A DNA stretch of 52,720 nucleotides from Chthonomonadia bacterium (GTDB lineage: Bacteria > Armatimonadota > HRBIN16). The notes beneath the pieces were generated by a model, which saw nothing but the letters and a program-made list of their open reading frames with translations, was not told where the DNA came from and ran no database searches. Where the stretch lies: NCBI GenBank assembly GCA_013314755.1, contig JABUFA010000025.1, forward strand, positions 1 through 52,720. Direction: 5' to 3'. Shown piece after piece: positions 39,580 to 42,972 of the stretch (its first letter is position 1; each line of letters opens with the position of its first letter). Made by a program: the position numbers and the translations under genes.

Positions 39580-39783
39580 CTAAGACGAAGTGGCTTTCTG
39601 GGGAAGCACCAGTCCCAATCGCTCACCGATTTGCAGTGCCTGTTCCGCATCGCGCTCGTATAAGGATAACCATAATTGCATGTTACGCTCCTTGACGTAA
39701 TCCACAGCGCTTGCCGGAACATACACTGACACCAGCTGCCAGCTTCGCGGGAACAACAACGACACCCGGCGCTCTGTTTCCAT
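39580..39783 (-). CDS. Short protein, function unknown
   Basis: A 67-residue soluble protein, not recognised. The start is secure: AAAGGAGGTG lies 5 bases upstream of the ATG at 39783, and a TATAAT box lies about 110 bases upstream. The sequence METERRVSLLFPRSWQLVSV then a mixed alpha/beta pattern (AVDYVKERNMQLWLSLYERD, ALQIGERLGLVLPQ) has no membrane segment. It ends at a bidirectional terminator. It could be a small regulator or chaperone-like protein, but nothing in the sequence decides this. Confidence 0.65.
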   Translation of the reverse strand: METERRVSLLFPRSWQLVSVYVPASAVDYVKERNMQLWLSLYERDAEQALQIGERLGLVLPQKATSS

Positions 39784-39891: not shown

Positions 39892-39897
39892 ATTATA
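39892..39897 (-). promoter_or_regulatory. -10 box for the 67-residue protein gene
   Basis: The minus strand reads TTGTATAATGG with a perfect TATAAT. The -35 region 17 bases upstream (TGGCAT) is poor. It lies downstream of the terminator at 39929-39956, so this gene has its own transcription start. Confidence 0.5.
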
Positions 39898-39928: not shown

Positions 39929-39956
39929 AAAAAAACGCCCCGACACCGCCGGGGCG
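39929..39956 (-). terminator. Intrinsic terminator of the candidate small RNA
   Basis: On the minus strand CGCCCCG-GCGGTGT-CGGGGCG is followed directly by seven T residues. No recognised gene on this strand ends here, so it marks the end of a non-coding transcript. Confidence 0.8.
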
Positions 39957-40044
39957 AAACGCAGGAATGAAGGAGTGAGTGTCTGAACGGAAAAGACCTC
40001 CTGCTGTCGGTGTCCAGCTCTTTTCGTGCACACACTCCTGCACA
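39929..40044 (-). ncRNA. Candidate sigma-54-dependent small RNA
   Basis: About 116 nt between a predicted sigma-54 start (near 40044) and an intrinsic terminator. The transcript would begin GUGCAGGAGUGUGUGCACG and fold into one long imperfect hairpin: GGAGUG with CACUCC, CGAAAAGA with UCUUUUCCG (one bulge), and GCUG with CAGC at the tip, exposing an AGGAGG near the apex. No start codon follows that AGGAGG at a usable distance. It does not resemble SRP RNA, tmRNA or a riboswitch that I know. A 6S-like regulator is possible but unproven. Confidence 0.5.
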
Positions 40045-40054
40045 TCACCTATAG

Positions 40055-40070
40055 TGCAAGATTCGTACCA
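40055..40070 (-). promoter_or_regulatory. Sigma-54 (-24/-12) promoter of the candidate small RNA
   Basis: The minus strand reads TGGTACGAATCTTGCA. GG and GC are exactly 10 bases apart, as sigma-54 requires. It differs at one base from the element at 41401-41416. The rest of the 457-base gap (40071-40240) shows no gene and no clear sigma-70 promoter for the PEP-CTERM gene after it. Confidence 0.65.
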
Positions 40071-40240
40071 TTCGCGGGGTAAACCAGAAAACAGGCGGTT
40101 TTTACAGGGGGGAGGTTGTAAGAGTGATCTCAAGGCGCATGAGAGATTGGGAACAAGAAACGAACGCAATGGTTGAAAAAGTATTTCCTGCCAGCAATTT
40201 TACTATGGATAGGGAGTAACAAGAAAGGAGGATATTCCCG

Positions 40241-41281
40241 ATGCGGTGGATGAGATGGCTTCCGACGGTGCTTATCGCGTTTAGCCTGCAGCTTGGCGTT
40301 GTGCTCTCTGCTAGCGCACAGGTCGGACTTGTGCAGTATCACAAGCAGCAGAACTTCTTCCTGCAGCCCGGTGGGAACGTACCGCCTTTGGTCAACTGGG
40401 AGTGGGACGTATTCGCGCTTGCTGTTGGACCTCCACCCGCAGTACAAGCTGGCAACCCAGGTATTCTCAGAGATATTAACGTTGGCTTTCAGAGAAGGGA
40501 CGCTCAAAGGGAGAAACCTTGGGCAAAGGCTAGTGCCACAAGTTGGGTCAATCTAACCGCGAAAGCCCCCCAGGCTGTGACAGGCCAAATTGGTGTATCC
40601 GGCTGGGCATGGGTAGGGCCGCCGCAGGGTCAAAACGCAAGGGCAGAGAGTAGGTCTAAGTCTAAGATTACAGCAACAGCACGGACAGATAACGGTAAGG
40701 GAATAATCACTCTAGGTAACTCTGTGAGTGCAAGTCTCAGCGGGTCTGTGAATGTGGCGCAAAACGTGAACGTGAAAGACCCTATGTACATTGAAATCAT
40801 CGACCTTGATTTGAACCTGCTGGACCGACTGAAGATACTGGATATCGAGCTGAACATGCGCAGCCCTGGCGACGCAAACGAGAGCACCGTTGAGTGGGAC
40901 GATATCACCAACTACCTGTACTTCAATGTGGTGCATGATGCCGACCTCATCATCGATATCCCTGGCGACTACACTGATCTGGAAGGCAAAGTAAAACTTT
41001 CTATACGCGGAGGCACAATCACGGGGTCCGAAGATAGCGGCATCTTCGATGGGCTGTTCCCTGATGTCGGTGAATTGGGGATATTTAGTGTAAACATGCC
41101 TGTTCTAGAGATGGAATACGACGTGAGCAGCTATTTCGGCGACCCGAACAACCCCGAGGAAAGATATCTGGGTTTCATACTCGAAGGTGCGGGAGAGGCT
41201 CAGGCTGTCATTCCTGAACCAGCTACCCTGCTGCTGTTCTCCGTTGGTATGTTGCCGCTTATTCGCAGGTTCAGGAAATAG
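40241..41281 (+). CDS. PEP-CTERM sorting-domain protein
   Basis: A 346-residue exported protein. It has a signal peptide (WLPTVLIAFSLQLGVVLSASA-Q) and a C-terminal sorting signal, IPEPATLLLFSVGMLPLIRR followed by FRK. The body is rich in Asn, Val and Thr in beta-strand patterns with no recognised domain: a region with alternating charges near residues 140-160 (ARAESRSKSKITATART) and a Leu/Asp segment (IIDLDLNLLDRLKILDIEL). It has few cysteines. The ATG at 40241 has AAAGGAGG upstream. A terminator follows 24 bases after its stop, so it is a single-gene unit. Surface or extracellular-matrix anchoring is likely through exosortase. Confidence 0.88.
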   Translation: MRWMRWLPTVLIAFSLQLGVVLSASAQVGLVQYHKQQNFFLQPGGNVPPLVNWEWDVFALAVGPPPAVQAGNPGILRDINVGFQRRDAQREKPWAKASATSWVNLTAKAPQAVTGQIGVSGWAWVGPPQGQNARAESRSKSKITATARTDNGKGIITLGNSVSASLSGSVNVAQNVNVKDPMYIEIIDLDLNLLDRLKILDIELNMRSPGDANESTVEWDDITNYLYFNVVHDADLIIDIPGDYTDLEGKVKLSIRGGTITGSEDSGIFDGLFPDVGELGIFSVNMPVLEMEYDVSSYFGDPNNPEERYLGFILEGAGEAQAVIPEPATLLLFSVGMLPLIRRFRK

Positions 41282-41400: not shown

Positions 41401-41416
41401 TGGCACGAATCTTGCA
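41401..41416 (+). promoter_or_regulatory. Sigma-54 (-24/-12) promoter of the sigma-like gene
   Basis: TGGCACGAATCTTGCA matches the sigma-54 consensus TGGCACG-N4-TTGCA exactly, with GG and GC 10 bases apart. The predicted start is near 41427, 63 bases before the ATG at 41490. The A/T-rich 41341-41375 upstream could bind an activator or IHF-like protein. Confidence 0.75.
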
Positions 41417-41489: not shown

Positions 41490-42044
41490 ATGGTCTCTGT
41501 GGCAGGCATTCCCAGCCGGCTGGTAAGATGGGCAGACGATATTCTGCCCGACTGGAGGTGTGTGGAAGTGCCTGCCGAGACGGATTGGCAGTGTGCGGTA
41601 CGGTGTGCCCTGCGCCGGGTTGCCACCTGGAGGACGCCCCCCAACTGGTCGCGCCGGGACTGGATGGAGGAGATGCACGCGGAGGCAGAAGCAGGTGGCT
41701 GGAAAGCCTTCTGTGAGTACGATTCCAGCACCGGGTGCACTCTCTTCCAGTTCGTCTATCGTCATACCGTGAACACCTGCCTTCAGCGTTACCGCCAGGA
41801 GTGGCGTTATGCCCTGCACTGCCACCCGATAGAGGATTACCATCCCTTCCACGAAGAACCTTCGCCAGAACTGGGCGTGGCGATGGCGCATCTGCCTCTA
41901 CGTGACCGCGAACTGCTTTACGCCCTTTTCTGGGAAGGACGCAGTGAGACCGACGTCGCCCGCGAGCAGGGGATAAGCGTGCAGGCGGTCAGTCAGCATA
42001 AGCGTCGGGCGCTGCGGAGGCTGAGGGGGTTTTTGTGGGGATAG
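41490..42044 (+). CDS. Sigma-70-family (ECF-like) regulator
   Basis: A 184-residue protein whose C-terminal third is a sigma region 4 helix-turn-helix: LPLRDRELLYALFWEGRSET then DVAREQGISVQAVSQHKRRALRRL. The middle (FCEYDSSTGCTLFQFVYRHT, CLQRYRQEW) looks like region 2 of short ECF factors, although weak. The N-terminus is Trp- and Cys-rich. It has no ribosome site near the ATG at 41490, so expression may be low or the start slightly off. It lies after a sigma-54 promoter and 49 bases before a PEP-CTERM peptidase-like gene, suggesting a regulatory cascade. An anti-sigma gene is not seen. Confidence 0.75.
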   Translation: MVSVAGIPSRLVRWADDILPDWRCVEVPAETDWQCAVRCALRRVATWRTPPNWSRRDWMEEMHAEAEAGGWKAFCEYDSSTGCTLFQFVYRHTVNTCLQRYRQEWRYALHCHPIEDYHPFHEEPSPELGVAMAHLPLRDRELLYALFWEGRSETDVAREQGISVQAVSQHKRRALRRLRGFLWG

Positions 42045-42093
42045 GAATGACGTGGTGTCCTACCAACCCCAGGGGGAAGACGAGGTGAATCCG

Positions 42094-42972
42094 ATGAAAC
42101 ACAAATCTCTGGTTACCAGTCTCGGTATCATGTTCTCGCTCTTGCTGTTGCTGATCGGTTCAGCACCAGTGTGGGCACAAACAATCCTGCCTCAAAACGA
42201 TGACGACCCTATTGATTACGGTTACGAGTCTGAAAATGTGTGTTGCGTCGACGTAGCCGCCGTGAACATGCTCCACCGCCTGAGCAAGCAATCGGGAAAT
42301 CAAGGTCTGATTCCAACAGGCAAGAGCATCAAGGAACAGCAGGAGGACTTTCATAAGAAATATGATCCAAATTTTAGCAAGAAGATGGGGTCTTTAAATG
42401 ACGCCGTAACCGGATTTAAAGAGGTTCTTGCCGAACGAAAATTTACTGGCACAGTCCAACCATTTTATACGAAAGACCTTTCGTATCAGAAGCTGGTGGA
42501 AGAGTTCCAAAAGAACGGAACGATTATGCTTACTTGTCACAGCGATAAAGTCGGTGGACACGCGCTGTTTCTTTGGGGGCTGGAAACCGACCCCACTAAA
42601 CCGCCAAAGCTAACCATTATCGATCCGAACGTTCATCCCAACACCGAACACAAGATCGACGGTAAAAATACCAATTCCAAAGGGACCTCGACAGAGGTTG
42701 CGCTCACTATTGGCACTGATGAGAAAGGGTTTCCGAAATGGACGATTACTTACACCGCACCTGAATATACCTACCAGTACACCTACCGAAGAGAAGATGG
42801 TAGCCAGGAAACCATTGAGGAGACTTTCCCGGCGGTAACATACACCTATCGCATAACAGCCTTTCTCAGCGTTTCCGCGGTGAAGCCCATCCCCGAACCC
42901 ACCACCCTGCTCCTATTTGGCACGGGGTTGAGTGTGGTGCTCGGTTTCACGCGGGGGCGTCGCCGGACGTAG
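42094..42972 (+). CDS. PEP-CTERM protein with C39-like cysteine peptidase domain
   Basis: A 292-residue exported protein. Signal peptide (SLGIMFSLLLLLIGSAPVWA-Q). The body fits the papain-like C39 fold: Cys50/Cys51 at the start of a helix (ENVCCVDVAAVNMLHRL), His156 in KVGGHALFLWGLE and Asp177 in LTIIDPNVHPN, the order and spacing of a Cys-His-Asp triad. The C-terminus carries IPEPTTLLLFGTGLSVVLG then FTRGRRRT for exosortase sorting. The start at 42094 has GAGGTGA upstream. Whether it cleaves a leader or a surface protein is unknown, and the triad assignment is by reading only. A strong terminator follows. Confidence 0.8.
   Translation: MKHKSLVTSLGIMFSLLLLLIGSAPVWAQTILPQNDDDPIDYGYESENVCCVDVAAVNMLHRLSKQSGNQGLIPTGKSIKEQQEDFHKKYDPNFSKKMGSLNDAVTGFKEVLAERKFTGTVQPFYTKDLSYQKLVEEFQKNGTIMLTCHSDKVGGHALFLWGLETDPTKPPKLTIIDPNVHPNTEHKIDGKNTNSKGTSTEVALTIGTDEKGFPKWTITYTAPEYTYQYTYRREDGSQETIEETFPAVTYTYRITAFLSVSAVKPIPEPTTLLLFGTGLSVVLGFTRGRRRT

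Follow-up and report, generated by a model that had tools for sequence, protein, structure and literature searches.

The minus strand of a 52,720-nucleotide stretch of DNA from an Armatimonadota genome (the window and the source genome hereafter) most likely carries a trans-acting small RNA (sRNA) of the PEP-CTERM/exosortase sigma-54 regulon. On the strength of its sequence, this RNA would occlude ribosome binding sites (RBSs) of its own regulon and thereby act as an incoherent feed-forward brake. The promoter, the terminator, their conservation, the complementarity to targets and the sigma-54-like promoters of those targets are all seen directly in the sequence.

The features of the locus are listed in Table 1, and the minus strand upstream of and through the predicted sRNA start reads GCGAATGGTACGAATCTTGCACTATAGGTGATGTGCAGGAG. 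The locus is a stand-alone non-coding gene with its own promoter and Rho-independent terminator. A sigma-54-dependent non-coding RNA gene had been proposed here in a sequence-only reading, on the basis of GG and GC elements 10 bases apart, a 116-nt span and a GC stem followed by seven Ts, and each of these elements was found as described. The exact promoter pattern, TGGYACGAWTCTTGCA, has 12 sites in the source genome compared with 0 for the reversed pattern, and a promoter of the -24/-12 type is kept upstream of the sRNA in 9/9 genomes. A terminator scan returned a 9-bp stem (39956..39936), 8 pairs of which are G-C, followed by TTTTTTT. The TATAAT that the same reading assigned to the next minus-strand gene, downstream of the terminator, was also seen. 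Transcription would begin at 40044. In relatives the sRNA is 116-139 nt long, with irregular indels that do not come in threes; the gene is therefore taken to be non-coding. A covariance search against Rfam gave 0 matches at the gathering threshold. All Rfam matches at E < 10 were sub-threshold, the best reaching 19.2 bits where 50 was required and aligning mainly to the terminator.

Table 1. Positions of the sRNA gene, its structural elements and neighbouring features in the window.
Feature	Position	Strand	Remarks
67-aa protein gene	39580..39783	-	no Pfam hit; syntenic with the sRNA
Separate -10 (TATAAT) of the 67-aa gene downstream	about 39892..39897	-	kept in most loci
sRNA gene	39929..40044	-	predicted +1 near 40044; ~116 nt including terminator, ends at T7 tail
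Intrinsic terminator	39929..39956	-	9-bp stem and T7; kept in 9/9 genomes
P1 3' arm CAUUCCUGCG	39960..39969	-	consensus fold
Invariant target-pairing segment CUUUUCCGUUCAGACACUCACUCCUUCAUUC	39965..39995	-	conservation, unpaired probabilities and predicted pairing to target RBSs
P2 5' arm CUGGAC	40012..40017	-	pairs with GUUCAG at 39983..39988
P1 5' arm GUGCAGGAGUG	40033..40043	-	consensus fold; almost invariant; pairs with 39960..39969
Sigma-54 (-24/-12) promoter TGGTACGAATCTTGCA	40055..40070	-	GG and GC exactly 10 bases apart
PEP-CTERM-like protein gene, ends VIPEPATLLLFSVGMLPLIRRFRK	40241..41281	+	adjacent; not a predicted target
Second sigma-54 promoter TGGCACGAATCTTGCA	41401..41416	+	precedes gene pair 41490..42972

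The genus is represented by ten Armatimonadota genomes including the source genome, and the sRNA is present as a single copy in nine of them. Full-length homologues of a 166-bp stretch (72-77% identity) were found in 7/9 other members, with a partial-identity homologue in an eighth, whilst a DNA search covering 61 genomes revealed no convincing homologue outside the genus. A 34-nt 3' core, TTTCCGTTCAGACACTCACTC[CT]TTCATTCCTGCG, is found a single time in each of 9/10 genus genomes, the source included. The records that it matches are Armatimonadetes and unclassified-bacterium metagenome-assembled genomes, such as HRbin16, RSWS16, SKYG40 and SKYG83. A covariance model of the RNA (R1) scored 102-165 bits in the nine sRNA genomes and at most 28 bits elsewhere among 251 Armatimonadota genomes; the matches of 17-28 bits outside the genus are mostly short and were taken as terminator-like. 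Moreover, synteny is conserved: the sRNA lies beside the 67-aa gene in 8/9 loci (in 7 other genomes tblastn gave 89-94% protein identity at this place), genome G008 being the exception to this adjacency, and an AhpC-like gene or the next peptidase-like gene is also syntenic in most loci. The tenth genome, G009, contained no sRNA by the covariance model or by a DNA search of the whole locus, and the entire 1.8-kb neighbourhood is missing from this 98% complete draft. Either gene loss or an assembly gap would account for this, and the two are indistinguishable. G009 retains the pairing sites of the exosortase, the prepilin and the PEP-CTERM-like gene (loci L051, L061, L137-L141).

Comparative folding, proposed earlier as a check on the RNA, recovered a consensus across relatives that consists of helix P1, helix P2, a variable apical hairpin (missing from the window's copy) and the terminator. 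P1 closes the 5' end of the RNA against the segment directly before the terminator. P2 is retained in 8/9 sequences and its changes are one-sided only, whilst inspection by eye revealed two positions of the apical hairpin with A-U/G-C exchanges. As P1 and P2 barely vary, covariation neither supports nor refutes them. The sequence-only reading had described one long imperfect hairpin. The fold is indeed more stable than shuffled sequences, but only mildly so (z = -2.0, or -1.1 without the terminator), and the functional evidence for the sRNA is its conservation and pairing, not its fold energy. The centre of the invariant segment, ACACUCACUCCUUCA, forms the 3' strand between P2 and P1 and is predicted to be mostly unpaired in nearly all genomes. 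That it is unpaired and yet invariant suggests an intermolecular contact. The sRNA thus offers a conserved stretch, predicted to be accessible, that is complementary to mRNAs from other loci.

The conserved functional stretch is UCACUCCUUCAUUC, and its predicted targets are found elsewhere in the genome rather than next to the sRNA. The exposed AGGAGG, previously suggested as the acting element, is present in the source genome only and was abandoned in this role. Action on the adjacent PEP-CTERM mRNAs is not supported, since pairing at the RBS of the neighbouring gene is at background (27% of control genes pair as well) and this neighbour is not conserved beside the sRNA. What survives in spirit is the idea of an anti-Shine-Dalgarno-like segment that acts on the PEP-CTERM system, with targets at other loci.

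The invariant segment is complementary to the RBSs of four unlinked genes, and the stretch predicted to pair with them is ACUCACUCCUUCA. These predicted targets are an exosortase, matched in 9/9 genomes, the Wzz-like gene that stands third in its operon and, in 7 genomes each, a DUF1559 prepilin and a PEP-CTERM-like protein. The exosortase was identified by PF09721 (1.6e-61) and by TIGR02602 above its cut-off, and the Wzz-like gene by a weak Pfam match. The complement GAATGAAGGAGTGA has exactly two sites in the source genome, namely the sRNA antisense and the exosortase RBS, and across the 10 genomes its 13-mer matches only the sRNA and the exosortase RBS. Where exosortase leaders differ (G003, G006 and G008), the changes are A-to-G and keep G-U pairs, with one additional edge mismatch in G008; the only divergent sRNA (G004) carries a C-to-U change that also keeps pairing. 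Nearly all target-site differences are compatible with G-U pairing. The adjoining 13-mer AAGGAGTGAGTGT gave 10 exact non-self matches in ten genomes, all of them at RBSs and belonging to three families: 4 at the DUF1559/N-methylated prepilin, 5 at a secreted protein whose tail is PEP-CTERM-like and 1 at a galT-like gene. Inexact sites add 2 wobble variants and 1 single-mismatch site for the prepilin, and 2 wobble variants for the secreted protein. The RBS of the Wzz-like gene reads AAGGAGTGAGTG[AG] in seven genomes, with a shorter match in the source genome. Pairing to the prepilin mRNA takes in the start codon and reaches codons 2-5 (AAGGAGTGAGTGTC-ATGAGAACGCGAAAAG), and the coding bases in this region are identical in 6/7 genomes. 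Among the other PEP-CTERM mRNAs in the regulon, most pair at background level. Recurrent matches to AAGGAGTGGGTGT within coding DNA (L232, L234-L237) were not at an RBS and were discarded.

Two other observations concern the exosortases. The exosortase mRNA leaders (L056-L064, e.g. L060:1404-1503) contain a hairpin, ACGRGG-CGGUAGA-CCYCGU, that is conserved in 9/9 genomes; its loop hardly varies, and one of its pairs shows compensatory G-C/A-U change. A second conserved helix extends into the sRNA-binding site. The hairpin has no Rfam match and is a candidate cis-regulatory RNA. Nearly every genus genome also encodes a second exosortase paralogue (L065-L073; 26-33% identical), and no such sigma-54 promoter was found near it.

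Several controls were applied to the predicted pairing. Among non-target orthologues, 3/16 pairs have identical stretches of 12 nt or more at the RBS. RBSs in this genus are thus often conserved anyway, so site conservation alone proves little and was dropped as sole evidence. Duplex energies from single genomes were also set aside as sole evidence, being modest relative to scrambled flanks: when the flanks were scrambled and ACUCCUU was kept, 7/80 segments reached rank 1 by best energy. Pairing was therefore tested against an independent property, the presence of a sigma-54-like site within 300 nt upstream, in 1.84 Mb of the genome G005 (1,823 genes). Twelve genes in this set have such a site, whilst none has the reversed motif. 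The four targets ranked 1, 3, 4 and 6 for pairing among the 1,823 genes (the Wzz-like gene being fourth), and three of the top six pairers, the PEP-CTERM-like gene, the prepilin and the exosortase, were among the 12 sigma-54 genes (hypergeometric test, p = 4e-6). The same enrichment was seen in 0/200 flank-scrambled segments; overlapping sRNA segments caught no more than 2 of the top six, and segments from other parts of the sRNA caught none. The two G005 stretches with the exosortase, Wzz-like and prepilin genes had been chosen because these genes were already known, whilst the one with the PEP-CTERM-like gene came from an unselected run; ranks were taken against all 1,823 genes. In the source genome, the same three targets ranked 1-3 among 407 sampled genes, a sample in which the target loci were included on purpose. 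After correction for accessibility, binding to the exosortase was better than for all 400 control genes, and the other targets were in the best 1-3%.

Beyond the sRNA promoter, TGGYACGAWTCTTGCA occurs at 11 other sites. Of these, 7 lie in front of ORFs, or an operon, whose products end like PEP-CTERM proteins, and 1 precedes the EpsH-family exosortase. All four target genes have, or sit behind, sigma-54-like promoters. That of the prepilin, TGG[TC]ACGC[TA]TTTTGC[AT], is kept in seven genomes, whilst the PEP-CTERM-like target gene has a conserved -12 element, CTTGCTGTCTAA, and a more variable -24. There is one rpoN match in the source genome, and each genus genome contains an rpoN match. A single clear NtrC-like response regulator, closest to the PrsR model but below its cut-off, was found per genus genome, with the exception of the incomplete G007. 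In the source genome it is a Sigma54_activat response regulator with GAFTGA, composed of a receiver and a sigma-54 AAA+ domain. Its nearest model is PrsR (TIGR02915), at 414 bits against a cut-off of 502.6 over positions 1-375 of 445, and no Fis or HTH DNA-binding domain was detected with Pfam. In Proteobacteria, PEP-CTERM genes were inferred to be under sigma-54 with PrsK/PrsR (PMC1569441), and Aquincola pepA was shown to depend on RpoN (PMC9850573). The link between sigma-54 and PEP-CTERM, found only in Proteobacteria by Haft et al. 2006 (PMC1569441), is thus seen to exist in Armatimonadota as well, from the promoters described here.

Further observations were made on the activator and on the window. 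In the activator locus (G000:C60, L176:9717-14695, minus strand), the activator gene is flanked on one side by that of a GAF/PAS histidine kinase and on the other by that of a receiver-PilZ protein. The PilZ gene has its own sigma-54-like site, and a link to c-di-GMP is possible through this neighbour. A motif resembling TACC[GT]GTTTT / AAAACCGGTAA is common upstream of the sigma-54 sites, being found at the sRNA (~40100..40080), the exosortase, the prepilin and the PEP-CTERM-like gene. It could be the site of the activator, though the activator seems to be without a DNA-binding domain. Behind the second sigma-54 promoter of the window, the plus-strand pair consists of a gene with sigma-70 region 4 (Pfam Sigma70_r4, ECF-like) followed by a PEP-CTERM gene, placing a sigma factor within a sigma-54 operon.

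Taken together, these data suggest the following circuit. With the RpoN activator on, RNA polymerase-sigma54 would make the PEP-CTERM mRNAs, the exosortase operon, the DUF1559 prepilin mRNA and the sRNA together. With its ends closed by P1, the sRNA would display the invariant strand between the helices, which would form duplexes of 12-17 nt with the Shine-Dalgarno sequences of the exosortase, the Wzz-like gene, the prepilin and one PEP-CTERM-like protein. We infer that these duplexes form in the cell and that their effect is repressive. Pairing would block entry of the 30S subunit, with GAAUGAAGGAGUGA in the exosortase leader as the expected protected stretch, and by doing so would cap or delay a chosen subset of the sRNA's own regulon. 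The sorting enzyme, the polysaccharide chain-length protein, the prepilin and one surface protein would be limited or delayed, and most PEP-CTERM substrates would escape. We lean, with some reserve, towards an sRNA dedicated to the PEP-CTERM/exosortase system, which would throttle the exosortase, the exopolysaccharide chain-length gene and the prepilin and so set in what order and proportion substrate, sortase and polysaccharide are made. If this is true, the exosortase, the Wzz-like protein, the prepilin and the one PEP-CTERM-like protein should rise in the absence of the sRNA or of its 13-nt seed.

The pairing could instead be that of a generic CU-rich anti-Shine-Dalgarno loop, touching many mRNAs weakly or titrating ribosomes, with the four targets being chance best matches. 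Any segment with an ACUCCUU core will find some strong RBS matches, and RBSs are conserved between orthologues. However, the same orthologues come top in different genomes and sigma-54 genes are enriched in the G005 test, and the 12-17 nt runs include flanks beyond the Shine-Dalgarno sequence, reaching the first codons in the prepilin. We therefore regard a generic loop as unlikely. It is also improbable that the sRNA activates some of its targets, whether by protecting the mRNA or by remodelling an inhibitory leader, with RBS pairing released on arrival of the ribosome. The exosortase leader does have conserved structure, with one compensatory helix and another abutting the pairing site, and sRNA-mediated activation exists elsewhere, as in GlmZ-glmS (summarised in PMC7073468). 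Against this, the pairing covers the Shine-Dalgarno sequence in all four targets, and the start codon too in the prepilin, which is the classical inhibitory geometry, and no leader sequence that sequesters these Shine-Dalgarno sequences has been demonstrated.

A coding role deserves hardly any credence. The RNA would then belong to an mRNA, as its leader or 5' portion, or would encode a small peptide, and mechanical ORFs do cross it on both strands. The recurrence of a VSERK start on the plus strand is explained by the complementarity of that strand to an RBS-like sequence. However, the conserved terminator lies ahead of the next gene, for which a separate -10 is present, the length differences are not multiples of three, and the plus-strand ORFs are erratic (30-121 aa). 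A peptide on either strand is not conserved and was ruled out.

Lastly, the proposed sRNA can be set beside known systems. An exposed pyrimidine-rich strand that pairs with the Shine-Dalgarno regions of several mRNAs is familiar from RpoE-dependent sRNAs and from Staphylococcus RNAIII, whereas the phylum, promoter class, structure and targets are different here. The PEP-CTERM/EpsH regulon with PrsK/PrsR (PMC1569441; PMC9850573) resembles the present one in that -24/-12 promoters stand before PEP-CTERM genes, RpoN is single and the activator is of the NtrC type. However, that work concerned protein genes only, whilst here the promoters are also found on the exosortase operon and the sRNA. If the circuit is true, it adds a post-transcriptional layer to the exosortase system, beyond sigma-54/PrsKR. 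Desulfovibrio Dv_sRNA2 (PMC3333781) is likewise controlled by a response regulator (DVU0679), in a host where PEP-CTERM/EPS control falls to another response regulator. Its regulator is nevertheless distinct from the PEP-CTERM one, and no exosortase link exists there. Sigma-54-driven regulatory sRNAs are already known in the form of Vibrio Qrr (PMC2680268), and the Qrr sRNAs (PMC2680268, PMC10162802) are likewise sigma-54-dependent (LuxO-driven), terminator-ended and trans-acting by base pairing within a feedback-type circuit. The two are unrelated in sequence, and whilst Qrr acts on the quorum-sensing master regulator, here there is one sRNA gene per genome and the targets are structural genes of the same regulon. 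In the literature searched, no small RNA regulator was found for exosortase or PEP-CTERM, nor was any sRNA work in the phylum Armatimonadota. Given this, the lack of an Rfam family and the Qrr precedent, the RNA appears to be a new sRNA family of a known type in a new regulatory setting. The family and its likely targets were found together, in an Armatimonadota genus of hot springs, and an sRNA made by the sigma factor of its own targets provides a concrete, testable circuit.
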